The position numbers and the translations under genes were made by a program. Shown one piece after another: positions 5,902 to 14,516 of a DNA stretch of 64,000 nucleotides. Below the pieces are notes generated by a model, which was not told the DNA's origin, ran no database searches, and worked only from the letters and a program-made list of their open reading frames with translations. The stretch covers positions 1 to 64,000 of the forward strand of contig JAACUH010000062.1 of the NCBI GenBank assembly GCA_009993005.1, in the 5' to 3' direction. The first letter of the stretch is position 1. Each line of letters starts with the position of its first letter. The stretch is from Rhodobacterales bacterium. GTDB taxonomy: Bacteria > Pseudomonadota > Alphaproteobacteria > Rhodobacterales > Rhodobacteraceae.

Positions 5902-6804
5902 TCAAGCCATCGTTGCGGACCCGCCTTGCGCCACCTCCGCCTCGCGCCGCGCGACCTCGGCCCGCAGGCCGGCCAACAGCGCCGCGGCAAAACGGTTGAT
6001 GCGGTCCGACCGGCGGTCTGCGGCATGGCGCACCAGATAGAAGGCGCGGGTGAGGCTGACCTGCGACACCAGAACCCGGTGCAATTCGGGCGCAAAGGGC
6101 AATGCAAAGTCATGCACGATCCCGACACCACCCGCGCGCAGCATCTGCAACTGCACCGCGACCGAGTTTGACGCCATCTGCACCCCGCCCATCCCCAGAT
6201 CGCCCAGGTAATCAAGCTCGCGGTCAAAGATCATGTCGGGGATATAGCCGACCATGGCCTGCCCGCGCAGGTCGCCCAATGTCTGCGGCACCGGACCGTC
6301 GCGGCGCATCGCCAGATGCAGGTGGTAGTCGGTGATCTTCTGCACGGTGAGACGCCCGGCATCCGGTGGGCTCACGGTCACGGCCATGTCGGCCTCGCGC
6401 TTGGAGAGGTTGACCACGCGCGGCAGCGCCAGCACCTGCACCTCGAGCCCCGGATTGTCGGCCCGGATCGCGGCGCAGACCCGGGGCAGCAGGAAATTGG
6501 CGCAGCCATCCGGCGCGCCGATGCGGATCTGCCCGGTGAGCCCTGCCGCACCCTGCCCTTCCTCCACCGCCTGCGTCAGCGCCTCTTCTGCGCGCGCGGC
6601 ATGCTCGCGCATCCGCAGCCCCCGGTCGGTCAGCGCATAGCCTTGCGGCGATTTGACGAACAGCGCCGCGCCCAGCCGGTCCTCCAGCCGCGCAATGCGC
6701 CGCCCGACGGTGGCCGGATCCATCCTGAGCCCCGGCGCCGCGGCAGTCAGGCTTTCGGCGCGGGCGACAGCCAGAAACACGCGCAGGTCGTCCCAGTCCC
6801 CCAT
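5902..6804 (-). CDS. LysR-family transcriptional regulator, divergent from mmsA
   Basis: Protein of 300 aa with an N-terminal winged helix-turn-helix (residues 1-65, including FLAVARAESLTAAAPGL and ATVGRRIARLEDRLG) and a periplasmic-binding-type effector domain (about 90-290). It is transcribed away from mmsA with a 90-base shared promoter region that holds an inverted repeat of CTTGCAA. By position it is likely to control the valine degradation genes, sensing a pathway intermediate; the effector cannot be read from the sequence. Confidence 0.92.
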   Translation of the reverse strand: MGDWDDLRVFLAVARAESLTAAAPGLRMDPATVGRRIARLEDRLGAALFVKSPQGYALTDRGLRMREHAARAEEALTQAVEEGQGAAGLTGQIRIGAPDGCANFLLPRVCAAIRADNPGLEVQVLALPRVVNLSKREADMAVTVSPPDAGRLTVQKITDYHLHLAMRRDGPVPQTLGDLRGQAMVGYIPDMIFDRELDYLGDLGMGGVQMASNSVAVQLQMLRAGGVGIVHDFALPFAPELHRVLVSQVSLTRAFYLVRHAADRRSDRINRFAAALLAGLRAEVARREAEVAQGGSATMA

Positions 6805-6813
6805 ACCGACATC

Positions 6814-6863
6814 CTTGCAAGATGATTTTGGAATACTGCCGCTTTCAAGTTGGTTTTTGCAAG
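6814..6863. promoter_or_regulatory. Inverted repeat in the lysR-mmsA divergent promoter
   Basis: CTTGCAA at 6814-6820 and TTGCAAG at 6857-6863 form an inverted repeat with 36 bases between arms; each arm contains the palindrome TTGCAA. Placement between a LysR gene and its divergent neighbour suggests the two operator sites of the regulator. That assignment is an inference. Confidence 0.45.
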
Positions 6864-6894
6864 GCTACCCTGCGCCAACCCAAGGGAGGATACC

Positions 6895-8394
6895 ATGCGC
6901 GAACTCACCCATTACATCGGCGGCGAGCACGTCCGCGGCACGTCCGGCCGTTTTGCCGACGTGTTCAACCCCGCAACTGGCGAGGTGCAGGCCCGCGTGC
7001 CGCTCGCCGATGCGGCCGAGATGGACCGCGCCGTGGCGGTCGCCGCCGCTGCGCAGCCGAAATGGGCCGCGGTCAATCCGCAGCGCCGTGCCCGCGTGAT
7101 GATGAAATTCGTCGATCTGCTCAACCGCGACATGGACAAGCTGGCCGAGGCGCTGTCGCGCGAGCATGGCAAGACGCTGCCAGATGCGGCGGGCGACGTG
7201 CAGCGCGGCCTCGAAGTGGTGGAGTATTGCATCGGCGCGCCGGAACTGCTCAAGGGGGCGTTCACCGACGGCGCCGGTCCCGGCATCGACATGTATTCCA
7301 TGCGCCAGGCGCTGGGTGTCTGCGCCGGCATCACGCCCTTCAACTTTCCCGCGATGATCCCGATGTGGATGTTTGCCCCGGCCATCGCCTGCGGCAATGC
7401 CTTCATCCTCAAGCCGTCAGAGCGTGACCCCTCGGTGCCGCTGATGCTCGCCGAACTGATGGAGGAAGCCGGCCTGCCCAAGGGCATCCTGCAGGTCGTG
7501 AACGGCGACAAGGCCGCGGTGGACGCGATCATCGACCATCCGGTGATCCAGTCGATCGGCTTTGTCGGCTCTACCCCCATCGCCGAATATATCTACGGGC
7601 GCGGCTGTTCCATGGGCAAGCGGGTGCAGTGTTTTGGCGGCGCCAAGAACCACATGATCGTCATGCCCGACGCCGACCTCGACCTGGCCGCCGATGCGCT
7701 GATCGGCGCTGGCTATGGCGCGGCGGGCGAACGCTGCATGGCAATCTCGGTTGCCGTGCCGGTGGGCGAGGCCACCGCCGATGCGCTGATCGCCAGGCTG
7801 ATCCCGCGGATCGAAAAGCTGAAAGTGGGCCCCTATACCTCGGGCAAGGACGTGGACTATGGCCCGGTCGTCACCGCCGCCGCCAAGGCCAATATCCTGC
7901 GGCTGGTGGAAAGCGGCGTGGCCGAGGGCGCGAAACTGGTCGTCGATGGCCGCGATTTCAGCCTGCAGGGCTACGAGAACGGGTTCTTCGTCGGCCCCCA
8001 CCTCTTTGACCATGTGACACCCGAGATGGAGATCTATCGCAAGGAGATCTTTGGCCCGGTCCTGTCCACCGTGCGCGCGGCGAGCTATGAGGAGGCGCTG
8101 AAGCTCGCCATGGACCACGAATACGGCAACGGCACCGCGATATTCACCCGTGATGGTGACGCCGCGCGCGATTTCGCGGCGCGTGTGAATGTCGGCATGA
8201 TCGGGATCAATGTGCCGATCCCGGTGCCCCTGGCCTATCACACCTTTGGCGGCTGGAAGAAATCGGCCTTTGGCGATCTCAACCAGCACGGGCCCGACGC
8301 CTTCCGCTTCTACACCCGCACGAAAACCGTCACCTCGCGCTGGCCCTCGGGGATCAAGCAAGGCTCTGCCTTCAATTTCAAACCGATGGAGTGA
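6895..8394 (+). CDS. mmsA: Methylmalonate-semialdehyde dehydrogenase (CoA-acylating)
   Basis: Enzyme of 499 aa converting (methyl)malonate semialdehyde, NAD and CoA to propionyl-CoA (or acetyl-CoA) and CO2, the last step of valine degradation. It is an aldehyde dehydrogenase family member: the oxyanion asparagine is N150 in TPFNFP and the catalytic cysteine C281 in GAAGERCMAIS. The start ATG has GGGAGGA immediately upstream; an in-frame ATG at 6850 lacks homology. Downstream genes encode other valine steps. Confidence 0.95.
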   Translation: MRELTHYIGGEHVRGTSGRFADVFNPATGEVQARVPLADAAEMDRAVAVAAAAQPKWAAVNPQRRARVMMKFVDLLNRDMDKLAEALSREHGKTLPDAAGDVQRGLEVVEYCIGAPELLKGAFTDGAGPGIDMYSMRQALGVCAGITPFNFPAMIPMWMFAPAIACGNAFILKPSERDPSVPLMLAELMEEAGLPKGILQVVNGDKAAVDAIIDHPVIQSIGFVGSTPIAEYIYGRGCSMGKRVQCFGGAKNHMIVMPDADLDLAADALIGAGYGAAGERCMAISVAVPVGEATADALIARLIPRIEKLKVGPYTSGKDVDYGPVVTAAAKANILRLVESGVAEGAKLVVDGRDFSLQGYENGFFVGPHLFDHVTPEMEIYRKEIFGPVLSTVRAASYEEALKLAMDHEYGNGTAIFTRDGDAARDFAARVNVGMIGINVPIPVPLAYHTFGGWKKSAFGDLNQHGPDAFRFYTRTKTVTSRWPSGIKQGSAFNFKPME

Positions 8395-8472
8395 CGCGCG
8401 CGGCAATTTCTGGTTTTCTCGGGTGGCCCGGCGAATCCCTTGCCGGGCCGCATGGCGTGAACGGGGGCAACC

Positions 8473-8886
8473 TTGCCTGTTGTCTTTCGCATCCTGCCCG
8501 AACATGGGCTGATCCGCGTCCGCTACAGCGGCACGGCCGGGATGGACGAGACCCTGCGCGCGATGGACGCCTGCGCGAACCACCCCGATTTCCGCCCGCA
8601 TTTCCGCCATCTGGTCGATTTCCGCGCGATCGACGCGATCGACGCGGATTACCCGGCCTTTCTGGCGATCCAGGCCCGCGCCATCGATCAGTTGCTGCCA
8701 CAAGACATCGCCCCCTTCGTCATCTACCTCGCCGACAGCCCCCTGTCGCAAAAGGCCGCCCGCATGGCGATGCGGTCATGGGAAGGTGTGACCAGCATCG
8801 TCGCCATGATCCTCGAGGACGAAAGCGCCGCCTTTGAACTGCTTGGCGTCACGGGGCAGAGCCTCGATCCGCTCGGAGCCGGGTAA
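8473..8886 (+). CDS. Uncharacterised 137-aa protein in the valine locus
   Basis: Begins with a TTG codon; the only nearby in-frame ATG (8452) runs into a stop. The sequence starts with a beta-strand-like PVVFRILPEHGLIRVRYSG, then alternates predicted helices and strands (HLVDFRAIDAI, APFVIYLADSP, MRSWEGVTSIV). The layout resembles small SpoIIAA-like/STAS-type proteins that keep a strand-helix repeat, but I do not recognise it with certainty. No signal peptide or membrane segment is visible. Codon use matches the neighbours. A catabolic role is not implied by its position alone. Confidence 0.6.
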   Translation: MPVVFRILPEHGLIRVRYSGTAGMDETLRAMDACANHPDFRPHFRHLVDFRAIDAIDADYPAFLAIQARAIDQLLPQDIAPFVIYLADSPLSQKAARMAMRSWEGVTSIVAMILEDESAAFELLGVTGQSLDPLGAG

Positions 8887-8896
8887 GCCGCCCCGG

Positions 8897-8932
8897 CTTC
8901 ATCTTGCCCCAAATATCCCCGCCGGAGGCTCC
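8897..8932. repeat. Copy of a dispersed intergenic repeat (CATCTTGCCCCAAATATCC type)
   Basis: An intergenic segment of about 36 bases that combines CATCTTG, AAATATCC and CGCCGGAGGC. Diverged copies or parts of it occur at 37781-37801, 45247-45283 and 51463-51490, and its CGCCGGAGGC end is shared with the long inverted repeat at 43229-43312. All copies lie between genes near stop codons. Confidence 0.65.
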
Positions 8933-9018
8933 CCCCTCCCCGACCGCAGAGCGCGGGGTGGATTGCGCCGGACATCCGCGCCACCTAAACCAGAGAGACC
9001 GGCCCGGCGGAGAGCCTC

Positions 9019-9345
9019 ATGGATTTCGCACTCAGCCCTGAACAACAGGCGCTATTCGACCTCACCGCGGCGCGTCAGGTGCTGCGGCATGCCGCATGGC
9101 CCTTTGACAAGGATGCGCCAGAGGCGACGGTTTCCTGTGCCATGGCACAGCGCCACGTCTCCGGATCCGCCAGCAGCATCGCCGACGGCGGCCTGCAACC
9201 GCACGGCGGCCGTGGCGGCCCGGCCGATTGCGGGATCGAAAAGAGCGTCCGCGACCTGCGCGTGCACCAGATCCTGGAAGGGACCAACGAGATCATGCGC
9301 CGGATCATCGCGCGCGCCATGGTGGGCCGATGCGCGATGTGCTGA
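9019..9345 (+). pseudogene. Remnant of isobutyryl-CoA dehydrogenase with a large in-frame internal deletion
   Basis: A 108-codon frame whose first 16 residues (MDFALSPEQQALFDLT) match the N terminus of acyl-CoA dehydrogenases and whose remaining residues match their C-terminal domain, ending in CGIEKSVRDLRVHQILEGTNEI. About 270 codons of the family's usual 380 are missing, including the FAD- and substrate-binding middle domain and most of the helical core, so no dehydrogenase activity is expected. The join lies near codon 16 and keeps the frame. The frame overlaps the next gene by 16 bases. Its place before the hydrolase and mmsB genes is where isobutyryl-CoA dehydrogenase is normally encoded in valine operons. 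Confidence 0.8.
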
Positions 9346-10391
9346 TCCGGCAGGAGGGCCGCACCGGGCGCATCACGCTCAACCGGCCCGCGGCGCTCAA
9401 CGCGCTGACGCTGGAGATGATCGGCGCCATCGACGCGGCGCTGCGCGACTGGGCGCGCGATGATGGCATCGCCATGCTGGTGATCGACGCCGCAGGGCAG
9501 CGGGCCTTTTGCGCGGGCGGCGACCTGACGCAATTCCATGGCAGCGGCGCCGACCCGGCCCCGGGCCGCGCCTTCTGGCAGCAGGAATACCGGCTCAACG
9601 CCCGGCTCTTTCATTTTCCCAAGCCGGTGGCGAGTTTCATGCAGGGCCATGCGCTGGGCGGCGGGGTCGGCATCGGCTGCCACGGGTCGCACCGGGTTGT
9701 GGGGGCCGGCACGCGCATCGCCTTGCCGGAATGCTCCATTGGCCTTGTCCCCGATGTCGGCAGCACGCTTCTGCTGGCGCAGGCCCCGGGACGGCTGGGC
9801 GAATACCTCGGGATCACTGGCGACAGGATGGCTGCCGCCGACGCTCTGCATTGCGGCTTTGCCGACTACCACATCCCCGAGGCCGCCTGGCCCGCCCTGA
9901 TCGCGGCATTGTGCGACAGCGGCGACTGGACGCTGATCGACGCCGCGCATGTCCCGCCGGGGCCAAGCCGTCTTGCCGGCTGGCAGGGCGATATCGACAC
10001 GGCTTTTGGCGGTGAGACGCTGGGCGACATCTACCGCGGTCTGCCCCCCGCCCAGCCCCCCGACCTGCCTCCCGCCCTGCCCCCCGCCCTTGCCCATGCT
10101 CTGCCGCTGATGGCGCGCAATGCGCCGCTCGCCATGGCCTGCACGGTCGAATTCATCCACCGCGTCCGGATGCGCCCGACGATCGAGACCGCGCTGGGCC
10201 TGGAATACCGCTATGCGCACCGCGCGCTGGCGCAGGGCGATTTTCCCGAAGGCATCCGCGCCGCGCTGATCGACCGGGACGGTGCCCCGCGCTGGGCCCA
10301 TGCCGACTGGACCCGCCTGCCCGCGCGTGATGTCCTGGCGATGACGCTGCCGCTGGGCCCTGACGCCCTGAACCTGGAGGATGACGGATGA
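9330..10391 (+). CDS. 3-hydroxyisobutyryl-CoA hydrolase (enoyl-CoA hydratase/isomerase superfamily)
   Basis: Crotonase-fold enzyme of 353 aa expected to release CoA from 3-hydroxyisobutyryl-CoA in valine degradation. The oxyanion-hole region is FCAGGDL (60-66) and GHALGGGVGI (about 107-115); the hydrolase-type segment PECSIGLVPDVG lies at 133-144. I chose the ATG at 9330, inside the preceding dehydrogenase remnant, because homology begins there. A proline-rich stretch (PPAQPPDLPPALPPA) near residue 235 is a local low-complexity insertion. The stop overlaps the mmsB start (ATGA). A plain enoyl-CoA hydratase is the alternative, but length and C-terminal domain favour the hydrolase. Confidence 0.9.
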   Translation: MRDVLIRQEGRTGRITLNRPAALNALTLEMIGAIDAALRDWARDDGIAMLVIDAAGQRAFCAGGDLTQFHGSGADPAPGRAFWQQEYRLNARLFHFPKPVASFMQGHALGGGVGIGCHGSHRVVGAGTRIALPECSIGLVPDVGSTLLLAQAPGRLGEYLGITGDRMAAADALHCGFADYHIPEAAWPALIAALCDSGDWTLIDAAHVPPGPSRLAGWQGDIDTAFGGETLGDIYRGLPPAQPPDLPPALPPALAHALPLMARNAPLAMACTVEFIHRVRMRPTIETALGLEYRYAHRALAQGDFPEGIRAALIDRDGAPRWAHADWTRLPARDVLAMTLPLGPDALNLEDDG

Positions 10392-11254
10392 AGATCGGCT
10401 TTGTCGGGCTGGGCAACATGGGCGCGCCGATGGCGGCAAACCTTGCGGCTGCGGGACATGCGGTGACGGGCTATGACCCGGTGGCGAGGCCCGATGGATT
10501 GCGCATGGCTGCGTCGGCTACCGCAGCGGCGCAAGGGGCGGATGTTGTCATCACCATGCTGCCCGACGGGGCGATCCTGCGCGCCGTGGCGGCCCGGATC
10601 CACCCCGCGATGCGCACCGGTGCCATCCACCTCGACTGCTCCACCGTCGATGTGCAAAGCGCCCGCGCCGTCGCGCAGGCCGCTGGCGCCCTGCGCCTCG
10701 GCGCCATGGATGCGCCCGTGTCAGGCGGGATCGGTGGCGCGACGCAGGGCACACTCACCTTCATGGCAGGAGGTCCGGCGGAAACCTTCGCCACCCTCGC
10801 GCCGCTCTTTGACACGATGGGCAGCCGCGCGATCCTCTGTGGCGCGGCGGGCGCCGGACAGGCGGCCAAGCTGTGCAACAACATGATCCTGGGCGTCACG
10901 ATGATCGCCACCTGCGAGGCCTTCGTGCTGGGAGACAGCCTTGGCCTCGACCGGCAGGCGCTGTTTGACGTGGTCTCGACCTCTTCGGGCCAAAGCTGGA
11001 GCCTGACAAGCTATTGCCCCGCCCCCGGCATCGGCCCTGCGAGCCCTGCCGACAACGGCTATAGGCCCGGTTTCGCCGCCGCGCTGATGCGCAAGGACCT
11101 CGACCTTGCGCAGCAGGCGGCAGCAGAGGGCGGTGCCGAGACGCCTTTGGGGGCGCAGGCCGCCGACCTCTACCGGCAGTTCGTGGCAGAGGGCGGCGGC
11201 GGGCAGGATTTCAGCGCCGTTCTGCCCTGGCTTGCACGACGCAGCCGCACCTGA
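10388..11254 (+). CDS. mmsB: 3-hydroxyisobutyrate dehydrogenase
   Basis: Enzyme of 288 aa oxidising 3-hydroxyisobutyrate to methylmalonate semialdehyde with NAD. The N-terminal Rossmann motif is GFVGLGNMG (4-12), the substrate-binding segment DAPVSGG (108-114), and the catalytic lysine K161 lies in AAKLCNN. It overlaps the preceding hydrolase gene by four bases, so translation is probably coupled. Together with mmsA and the hydrolase it supplies the lower half of valine degradation. An imperfect inverted repeat (CGCCTGAC/GTCAGGCG, 11259-11302) follows the stop. Confidence 0.94.
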   Translation: MKIGFVGLGNMGAPMAANLAAAGHAVTGYDPVARPDGLRMAASATAAAQGADVVITMLPDGAILRAVAARIHPAMRTGAIHLDCSTVDVQSARAVAQAAGALRLGAMDAPVSGGIGGATQGTLTFMAGGPAETFATLAPLFDTMGSRAILCGAAGAGQAAKLCNNMILGVTMIATCEAFVLGDSLGLDRQALFDVVSTSSGQSWSLTSYCPAPGIGPASPADNGYRPGFAAALMRKDLDLAQQAAAEGGAETPLGAQAADLYRQFVAEGGGGQDFSAVLPWLARRSRT

Positions 11255-11393
11255 CCCGCGCCTGACTTGCGCCAGACCTGCGTCAGGGGGGTGCGTCAGG
11301 CGGTGCGACATCGCTTCACGCAGACGCGACGTGACACACGGCGCAAAACATGCTAGCTTTGCAATATATCAACCCGAGCATCGGAGTTTCATC

Positions 11394-11597
11394 ATGTTCG
11401 CCAAGAATGTCGGCTCGATCGACCGTATCCTGCGAATCGTCATCGGCCTCGCCCTGATCGCGGGCTTTTTCCTCAACACCGATGGCAGCTATCGCTGGCT
11501 CTATCTGCTCGGCGTGATCCCGCTGGCCACCGGGCTGATGTCCACCTGTCCGCTCTATTCGATTTTCGGCTTCTCAACCTGCCCGATGAAGCGCTGA
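11394..11597 (+). CDS. DUF2892 (YgaP-type) small membrane protein
   Basis: Protein of 67 aa starting MFAKNVGSIDRILRIVIGLA with two transmembrane helices (about 13-29 and 35-52) and ending in a cysteine-containing tail (STCPLYSIFGFSTCPMKR). This matches the DUF2892 family, inner-membrane proteins often found with rhodanese or sulfur-metabolism functions. A rhodanese gene lies about 3 kb away on the same strand but beyond uvrA. The start has CGGAG upstream. Specific function is unknown. Confidence 0.88.
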   Translation: MFAKNVGSIDRILRIVIGLALIAGFFLNTDGSYRWLYLLGVIPLATGLMSTCPLYSIFGFSTCPMKR

Positions 11598-11606
11598 AAC
11601 ATCAAG

Positions 11607-11634
11607 GGGTTGCGCGTTAGACTTCGCGCAACCC
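11607..11634. terminator. Hairpin between the convergent DUF2892 and uvrA genes
   Basis: Perfect 10-bp stem GGGTTGCGCG / CGCGCAACCC (11607-11616 with 11625-11634) with an 8-base loop. It touches the uvrA stop codon. A T run is weak on either strand, so it may act as a bidirectional but inefficient terminator or as an RNA-end stabiliser. Confidence 0.6.
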
Positions 11635-14516
11635 TATTCCGCCGCCACCTCGCGCGGTTTCAGCATCTGGGCCAGATAGCGCCCGGTATGGCTCGCCGCG
11701 ACCTTGGCCACATCCTCGGGCGTGCCGACCGCCACAACCTGCCCGCCGCCATCGCCGCCCTCGGGGCCGATATCGACCACCCAGTCGGCGGTCTTGACCA
11801 CGTCGAGGTTGTGTTCGATCACGATCATCGAATTGCCCTGGTCAACCAGGTGGTGCAGCACCTCGAGCAGTTTCTTCACATCCTCGAAATGCAGCCCCGT
11901 CGTGGGCTCGTCGAGGATATAAAGCGTGCGCCCCGTGGACCGGCGGGCGAGCTCTTTTGACAGCTTCACGCGCTGCGCCTCGCCCCCCGAGAGCGTCGTC
12001 GCCTGCTGGCCGACCTTGATATAGCCCAGCCCCACCTGCACCAGCGCGTCCATCTTTTCGCGGATCGCGGGCACGGCGCGGAAAAACTCCTGCGCATCCT
12101 CGACCGTCATCTCAAGAACGTCTGATATGTTCTTGTTCTTGAACTTTATTTCCAGGGTCTCGCGGTTGTAGCGTTTGCCCTTGCAGGTCTCGCAGGTGAC
12201 ATAGACATCGGGGAGGAAGTTCATCTCGATCTTGAGCACCCCGTCGCCCTGACAGGCTTCACAACGCCCGCCCTTGACGTTGAAGCTGAATCGCCCGGAC
12301 TTGTAGCCGCGCGCCTTGGCCTCGGGCAGCCCCGCGAACCAGTCGCGGATGGGGGTAAAGGCGCCGGTATAGGTCGCGGGGTTCGACCGGGGCGTGCGGC
12401 CGATGGGGCGCTGGTCGATGTCGATCACCTTGTCCAGATGTTCGAACCCCTTGATCGTCTCGCAGGGCGCGGGTGTCTCGCGCGCGCCGTTGAGGCGCAT
12501 CGCGGCATTCTTGTAAAGCGTCTCGATGGTCAGCGTCGATTTGCCGCCGCCCGACACGCCGGTCACGCAGACGAACTTGCCCAGCGGGAAATCGACCGTG
12601 ATGTCGCGCAGGTTGTTGCCCGTGGCCTTGACCACGCTCAGCACCTTGCCGTTGCCACGGCGCCGCTGTGCCGGCACCGCGACCTCGCGCGCGCCCGACA
12701 GGTATTGCCCGGTGATCGAGGCCGCATCGGCCATGATCTGCGCCGGCGTGCCATGCGACACCACATGCCCGCCATGCACCCCGGCCCCCGGCCCCATGTC
12801 GAACACATAGTCCGCCTCGCGGATCGCCTCTTCGTCATGTTCGACCACGATCACGGTATTGCCTTGATCGCGCAGGTTTTTCAGCGTGGTGAGCAGCCGG
12901 TCGTTGTCGCGCTGGTGAAGCCCGATGGAGGGCTCGTCGAGCACATAGAGCACGCCGGTCAGCCCCGAGCCGATCTGGCTCGCGAGCCGGATGCGCTGGC
13001 TCTCGCCGCCTGACAAAGTGCCCGCGTTGCGGCTGAGCGTCAGGTATTCGAGGCCCACATTGTTGAGAAAACCCAGCCGCTCGCGGATTTCCTTGAGGAT
13101 CGCGCGCGCGATTTCATTCTTCTGGTTGGTCAGCGCCTCGGGCACGGTGAGGCACCAGTCATAGGCCTCCCTGATCGACATCCGCACCACCTGCCCCGCA
13201 TGCAGCAGCGCCTGCGGCCCGTCCTTGGCCACCCCGATCTTGACCGCGAGCGCCTCGGGCCGCAGCCGGTAGCCGCCGCAGGCGCCGCAGGACCGGTTGT
13301 TCTGATATTGCTCGAATTCCTCGCGCACCCAGGCGCTGTCGGTCTCCTTGTAGCGCCGCTCCATGTTCGGGATCACACCCTCAAAGGCGCGGCTGACCTG
13401 ATAGACGCGCCCGCCCTCGTCATAGCGGAACTGGATTTCCTCGGTCCCGGACCCGCGCAGGAACACCTCCTGGACCGCAGGGTCGAGGTCTTTCCACCGG
13501 GCGTTCTTGTTGAAGCCGTAATGTTTGGCGATGGCTTCAATCGTTTGCAGGAAATAGGGCGACTTGCCCTTGCGCCAGGGCGCCAGCGCCCCATCCGCGA
13601 TCTTGAGCGTCACATCCGGCACCACGAGCCGTTCGTCGAAAAACAGCTCGACCCCAAGCCCGTCACAGACCGGGCAGGCCCCAAAGGGCGCGTTGAAGGA
13701 AAACAGCCGCGGCTCGATCTCGGGGATGGTAAAGCCCGACACCGGGCAGGCGAATTTCTCGGAGAATGTAATGCGCTCCGGCTCGCCCTCCTCCGGGGCG
13801 GTTTCCAGATGCGCGATGCCATCGGCGAGGTCGAGCGCGGTGCGCAGGCTGTCGGCGAGCCGCGTCTCGATCCCCTCGCGCACCACGATCCGGTCCACCA
13901 CCACGTCGATGTCATGGCGCAGCTTCTTGTCCAGCGCGGGCGGCTCGTCGAGCTCGTAGAACTGCCCGTCAACCTTGACCCGCTGGAACCCCTGCTTGCG
14001 CAGGTCGAGGAATTCCTTGCGGTATTCGCCCTTGCGGTCGCGGATGATCGGGGCAAGCAGATAGCCGCGCGTGCCCTCGGGCAGGGCCATCACCCGGTCC
14101 ACCATGTCCTGCACCTGCTGCGCCTCGATCGGCAGGCCGGTCGCGGGGCTGTAGGGGGTGCCGACGCGGGCGAACAGCAGGCGCAGGTAGTCGTAGATCT
14201 CGGTCACGGTGCCGACGGTCGAACGGGGGTTCTTCGACGTCGTCTTCTGCTCGATCGAAATCGCGGGGCTCAGACCCGTGATATGGTCCACGTCCGGCTT
14301 TTCCATCATGTCGAGGAACTGGCGCGCATAGGCCGACAGGCTTTCGACATAGCGGCGCTGCCCTTCGGCATAGATCGTGTCAAAGGCAAGCGAGGATTTG
14401 CCCGAGCCCGACAGGCCGGTGATGACGACAAGCTGGTCGCGCGGGATATCCACGTCGATGTTCTTGAGGTTGTGCTCGCGTGCGCCGCGCACCGAGATCG
14501 TCTTAAGCTCTGCCAT
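11634..14516 (-). CDS. uvrA: UvrABC excinuclease subunit A
   Basis: Damage-recognition ATPase of nucleotide excision repair, 960 aa. The first ABC module has Walker A GLSGSGKS (34-41) and the following [16 protein letters not shown]; the second has GVSGGGKST and signature [11 protein letters not shown]. Zinc-binding cysteines occur in [10 protein letters not shown] and [10 protein letters not shown] / [10 protein letters not shown]. The start is set at [16 protein letters not shown] because homology begins there. A LexA-type box lies 65-80 bases upstream, so SOS control is likely. It forms complexes with UvrB, which is not encoded in this window. Confidence 0.97.

Follow-up and report, generated by a model that had tools for sequence, protein, structure and literature searches.

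The frame at 9019–9345 (+ strand) of the window, the 64,000-nucleotide stretch of bacterial DNA analysed here, appears to be a pseudogene of isobutyryl-CoA dehydrogenase (IBD), a gene that is being lost at this locus before its neighbours, and we put the probability of this reading at roughly 0.83. The frame is open for 108 codons with a start and a stop, and fuses in frame the first 13–16 and the last ~91 residues of IBD. The gap amounts to about 272–275 codons (~820 bp, divisible by three), so that IBD has lost about 70% of its gene length here.

The ends of the deletion were defined by alignment with 27 intact IBDs of the same family. The remnant keeps columns 0–12 (by eye up to residue 16) and 288 to the end. 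This alignment and the comparison with L045, the locus of the closest relative found (G153), place the retained N-terminal codons at 9019–9066 (+) and the deletion junction near 9058–9066. Pfam finds only the acyl-CoA dehydrogenase C-terminal domain (PF00441) in the remnant, at positions 62–149 of 150, and neither the N-terminal nor the middle domain.

The top match of the remnant among solved structures is ACAD8 (1rx0, residues 303–391, E 1.6e-15), the human isobutyryl-CoA dehydrogenase. The intact L045 IBD also has ACAD8 as by far its best match (2.4e-124, against 1.7e-81 for the next). Hence Pfam, structure match and alignment all bear out the initial annotation in describing an in-frame fusion of ~16 and ~90 residues of an acyl-CoA dehydrogenase with the FAD/substrate core gone. 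Among plasmids, the best matches of the stump and mmsA come from Rhodobacteraceae, Sinorhizobium, Paracoccus and Pseudorhodobacter, which places the host probably within or close to Rhodobacterales.

The flanking valine genes had been called intact, and all three exceed their curated cut-offs. These are mmsA for the CoA-acylating methylmalonate-semialdehyde dehydrogenase (6895–8394, +; TIGR01722, 641.2 bits, cut-off 448.5), 90% identical to its G153 homologue, the 3-hydroxyisobutyryl-CoA hydrolase gene (9330–10391, +; NF004127, 324.4 bits, cut-off 274) and mmsB for the 3-hydroxyisobutyrate dehydrogenase (10388–11254, +; TIGR01692, 345.8 bits, cut-off 291.6).

The downstream genes remain constrained. 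The omega ratio of the hydrolase is 0.73–1.03, against 0.70–1.12 in four tested relatives, and that of mmsB is 1.01–1.44 (2dlnL up to 7.1), within the 0.69–1.97 of eight tested relatives. The window's hydrolase breaks one of 55 invariant columns (relatives' 0–3) and mmsB six of 116 (relatives 0–9).

Between mmsA and the remnant lies a small ORF without a Pfam family (8473–8886, +). By tblastn, four of the ten loci fetched (L046, L049, L052 and L053) carry diverged relatives of it (24.8–40.3%) after mmsA and before the place of IBD or the hydrolase, with two copies in L046. No structured RNA was found in 6000–12000 at gathering thresholds.

To find the orthologous loci, 61 genomes were searched for the hydrolase, among them 36 further members of the family. 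Its best matches yielded 27 same-family loci, taken with 1.5 kb flanks (L007–L033), and the other nine relatives gave no locus; two remote loci (30–38%) from the hydrolase-protein contig search were left out. A full IBD of 379–382 residues lies directly upstream of the hydrolase in all 27 loci read, the starts in L014, L015 and L022 (TTG, TTG and GTG) being assigned by pattern. Thus the stump has full-length orthologues at the same place, as a pseudogene does. One of two other-family loci carries IBD (L035) and the other gave no hit (L034).

The remaining sequence has itself decayed. The end of the remnant is 64% identical to that of L045, and among the matches listed only G107 and G078 are lower. 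It breaks seven of 42 C-terminal columns invariant among the 27 intact IBDs, whereas the intact ones, each left out in turn, break 0–3 of 42–45. Residues unseen in relatives occupy 24 of the 91 remnant columns, whereas no intact copy has more than 12 (L029).

Four of the seven broken columns fall within GYGYLADY (Y339R, Y341G, L342P and Y345C), a stretch with a putative role in the cofactor site, and the other three changes are milder (D to E, K to Q and T to S). ILEGTNEIMR is kept, with the EGTNE loop whose glutamate is the base in most acyl-CoA dehydrogenases. Of the features of a functional IBD, the remnant thus retains the EGTNE loop and lacks both a conserved GYGYLADY and the full set of N-terminal, middle and C-terminal domains.

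A codon model that ties the branch time to the species branch, with a length of 0.306 from the hydrolase fit or 0.431 from the protein tree, gives the whole remnant an omega 3.0–4.3 times the background (2dlnL 30–49). The rise is steeper, 4.6–6.6 times (2dlnL 42–61), in segment A, the 58 relaxed codons at 9058–9231 (+). None of the 27 intact tips rises above 1.56 for the whole (reached by L018), 1.52 for segment A (L021) or 2.98 for the following segment B (L018, 2dlnL 6.6).

The tied-branch 2dlnL values overstate significance, since the intact L032 deviates downwards by 20.1 over the whole and, in mmsB, the intact-operon relative L018 stands at a ratio of 1.97 with a 2dlnL of 30.0. When the branch length is free, the model is uninformative. 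The omega of the whole remnant is not significantly raised (2dlnL 3.52), synonymous sites are saturated, and the fit for segment A did not converge, falling 1.36 in 2lnL short of the constrained fit. Relaxation relative to the intact orthologues is therefore found with the tied branch and is not significant with the free one.

That the frame has stayed open says little about selection because only 27 of 819 single-base changes give a stop in the IBD end of L045, and 40 random changes leave this end open in 26% of cases. A clean in-frame deletion had been considered unusual for simple decay. That argument loses its force here, as a deletion stays in frame by chance one time in three, 91 GC-rich codons remain open easily and point decay followed.

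The frame probably no longer ends at its ancestral stop. The IBD of L045 terminates in an ATGA that also contains the hydrolase start, whereas the window reads ATGC at this position and the frame continues for four codons, reading through 9331–9345 (+) to a TGA within the hydrolase gene. This suggests stop loss, and the last 16 nt of the frame, from the hydrolase ATG at 9330 on, now also belong to the hydrolase gene. The start codon is preceded by GGAGAG, so what had been described as a retained start signal and stop stands for the former and probably fails for the latter.

Compared with an IBD of the ACAD8 family (1rx0), the remnant keeps both termini and the gene its place between mmsA and the hydrolase. 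It differs in that most of the N-terminal and the middle domain are gone, GYGYLADY is altered and the original stop is probably lost.

The decay is uneven along the remnant. Segment B at 9232–9330 (+), the last 32–33 IBD codons, breaks none of 19 invariant columns, against seven of 23 in segment A (Fisher p 0.011), and only two of its 33 residues are unseen in the 27 relatives (S at 350 and R at 369), against 22 of 58 (p 0.001). Its omega ratio of 0.92–1.28 equals the normal IBD constraint, and imposing the omega of A on B worsens the fit (2dlnL 20–21). The cut between A and B was set with the data already in view. Scanning all windows by permutation yields p 0.028, and the best hot window lies at columns 290–350, where 23 of 61 residues are unseen against one of 30 outside.

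Relaxation thus does not extend over the entire remnant, and the decay ends about 100 nt ahead of the hydrolase start. Pure neutral decay should hit segment B too, which counts against a plain pseudogene, and we regard the contrast as a suggestive but unexplained oddity. Ordinary bacterial in-frame deletion pseudogenes are likewise truncated, without a second copy, relaxed in their substitutions and flanked by intact genes, but here the last 32 codons are not measurably relaxed.

This preserved tail is also what a translated leader might leave. The stump would then serve ribosomes running into the overlapping hydrolase start, with its 3′ part selected and the enzyme gone, and the GGAGAG ahead of the start codon, the 16-nt overlap and the position of undecayed segment B just before the hydrolase all agree with it. 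So does the junction of IBD and hydrolase in the intact loci, where 13 of 27 have the 4-nt overlap typical of coupling, four overlap by 1 nt, one abuts and nine have gaps of 2–211 nt, the hydrolase starts in this count being set by rule. Tight coupling is thus frequent in these loci without being a requirement.

Compared with relatives, segment B has a somewhat high same-codon identity, with a mean of 0.60 against 0.54 for intact pairs, and exceeds that of the hydrolase in seven of seven relatives among those listed. However, the rise is small, rests on 23–25 codons per relative and is near that of the hydrolase itself (0.53 against 0.49), while segment A has 0.52 against 0.55. Coupling requires an open frame and not conserved amino acids, and in three relatives (G147, G168 and G104) the hydrolase is kept although no IBD precedes it. 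We consider the leader unlikely, and the earlier suggestion that the stump is kept for translation into the hydrolase gene names something not needed in general.

Still less likely is that the stump works as a small protein built from the C-terminal helices of an acyl-CoA dehydrogenase, purifying selection acting on its last 32 residues. The constraint on segment B and the open frame with start and stop are what it would predict, but relaxation covers most of the remnant, invariant positions carry radical changes, and even segment B has its two residues unseen in the 27 relatives.

Nor was the short form seen again. A search with the 91 C-terminal residues of the L045 IBD was run at 1e-22, a limit that would miss far more decayed remnants, against 149 genomes of the family, each of its own genus and drawn evenly from a larger group. 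IBD ends were matched in 115 genomes, namely the 113 that pass the IBD limit given below, the window's own genome (G000) and G170. Among the matches listed, the open frames around the IBD end have at least 341 residues except in G000 (118) and G170 (143), the latter a broken frame on a contig that begins inside IBD. No second stump, which would have spoken for a distinct family, was seen in the 149 genomes at this limit, G000 being the only member of its genus among the genomes compared.

G170 was rejected as an IBD loss, its IBD fragments lying at a contig end in an assembly 73% complete. In this locus (L061 1–1641), IBD and the hydrolase each lack 20–25 residues with a frame change at one point, probably errors of the fragmentary assembly. 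In G127, one of two IBD matches (C8:359864–360661) covers residues 1–266 only, in a 378-residue frame, and the other (C16:3–1016) is cut by the contig end.

An assembly collapse, in which the assembler skipped ~820 bp of an intact IBD, might be suspected from the 196 contigs and from the similar short losses and frame changes in G170, but is highly improbable because the remnant itself has decayed, with invariant residues broken, omega raised and the stop probably lost, and no detached piece with the missing core turned up in the genome.

The window's genome of 3.40 Mb is 99.6% complete, and a second IBD, which the initial annotation proposed to look for, was not found in it with PF00441, PF02770 or the intact L045 IBD as queries. 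PF00441 matches five places, one of them the stump, and PF02770 four places without the stump. The intact IBD finds the stump at 64% and otherwise paralogues at 27–35%.

The four intact acyl-CoA dehydrogenases of the genome are all of other types than IBD by their solved-structure matches. The one on C92 matches best 6es9, which is presumably methylsuccinyl-CoA dehydrogenase, and its third match, 8ciw, carries this name. The C90 one matches glutaryl-CoA dehydrogenase, and those on C138 and C134 are long types with best matches to 8png and 6ijc, the latter being DmdC. The proposal that another dehydrogenase does the step is thus weakened.

A further acyl-CoA dehydrogenase that is not IBD, scoring 169.7–175.4 bits with PF00441, is present in seven of nine compared relatives and absent from the window's genome; G104, G147 and G168 each have acyl-CoA dehydrogenases of 170–175 bits. 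As to leucine, this genome reaches 285.6 bits with the HMG-CoA lyase model (cut-off 246), five of nine relatives reach 396–467 bits and the other four stay below the cut-off. PF00676, the model for E1 components, has four matches in this genome.

In the pseudogene reading, the in-frame deletion would have taken the FAD/substrate middle domain together with most of the N-terminal and part of the C-terminal domain, and the point substitutions and probably the stop-codon loss would have come afterwards. The conversion of isobutyryl-CoA to methacrylyl-CoA would then probably be impossible, this valine route would be broken at that step and the organism may be unable to use valine.

The downstream genes would be kept because other sources give them work. 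MmsA would act on the semialdehydes of malonate and methylmalonate, MmsB on 3-hydroxyisobutyrate or acids related to it, and the hydrolase would take 3-hydroxyisobutyryl-CoA or 3-hydroxypropionyl-CoA. Of the three options raised initially (another dehydrogenase, a pathway starting at a later intermediate or a stump kept for translation), the second fits best, given the constraint on the hydrolase and mmsB and three genomes with mmsA and the hydrolase side by side but no IBD.

How common is such a state in the family? The 149 genomes were surveyed for IBD (query L026, E up to 1e-100) and, with the window's genes as queries, for the hydrolase (1e-50) and mmsA (1e-200). The limits are passed by IBD in 113 genomes, the hydrolase in 124 and mmsA in 140, so IBD is the least often kept of the three. 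None of the 113 IBD-positive genomes falls below the hydrolase limit, while 11 of the 124 genomes that pass for the hydrolase miss the limit for IBD. Neither IBD nor hydrolase passes in 25 genomes, 22 of them with mmsA, and three genomes pass for IBD and not for mmsA.

The hydrolase limit admits some matches of 36–43% identity that are partly paralogues. The 11 genomes comprise the window's own, eight whose loci were fetched, and G103 and G111 (hydrolase at contig end) outside that set. Clear cases of hydrolase without IBD among them are only G000, G104, G147 and G168.

In G147, G168 and G104, an orthologous hydrolase lies beside mmsA with no IBD hit. Reading names from the translations, the gap holds an inverted glycosyltransferase-like gene in G147, and a relative of the 8473–8886 ORF with an L,D-transpeptidase-like frame in G168. 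In G104 it holds several unrelated genes, and no mmsB appears in the fetched 9 kb. The three losses look independent because the replacing contents differ. The unrelated genes at the IBD position span L048 3094–4128, L049 4280–4849 and L046 1500–4000 in these three relatives.

The other fetched loci are of different kinds. In G118 (L047 3161–4297), a different acyl-CoA dehydrogenase, 34% identical to IBD, directly precedes the hydrolase, with no mmsA at the limit. G151 has no mmsA, IBD or mmsB in the 9 kb fetched, and the hydrolase matches of G109 and G008 look like paralogues (35–38%).

A similar gene grouping is described for the mmsA3 operon of Cupriavidus necator H16, which holds mmsA, 3-hydroxyisobutyrate dehydrogenase, 3-hydroxyisobutyryl-CoA hydrolase and an acyl-CoA dehydrogenase gene (PMC6572756). 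Valine and isobutyrate both support growth of the parent strain there, the removal of mmsA3 or hbdH abolishes this growth, and three MmsA enzymes apparently act on either semialdehyde (PMC6572756). The grouping of mmsA, hydrolase and 3-hydroxyisobutyrate dehydrogenase is the same in our locus, but the acyl-CoA dehydrogenase annotated as present there is a remnant here (PMC6572756).

A bolder combination of these observations is that the last ~32 codons are still selected, the relic having been taken over as a hydrolase leader or mini-protein in a family that repeatedly dismantles valine catabolism from the first committed dehydrogenase downwards. We hold it to be improbable as a whole, about as much as the leader.

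As a single gene, the IBD pseudogene is a case of ordinary pseudogenisation, and the family pattern is more useful. At the limits used, IBD is the least kept of the three genes and no genome passes for IBD and not for the hydrolase, therefore the presence of mmsA or the hydrolase should not be read as a capacity for valine use. The window appears to catch a lineage in which the IBD step is already lost and the next gene is still kept. Plausible substrates for the products of the remaining genes are 3-hydroxyisobutyrate, 3-hydroxypropionate or semialdehydes, and the locus makes what feeds these enzymes a testable question.
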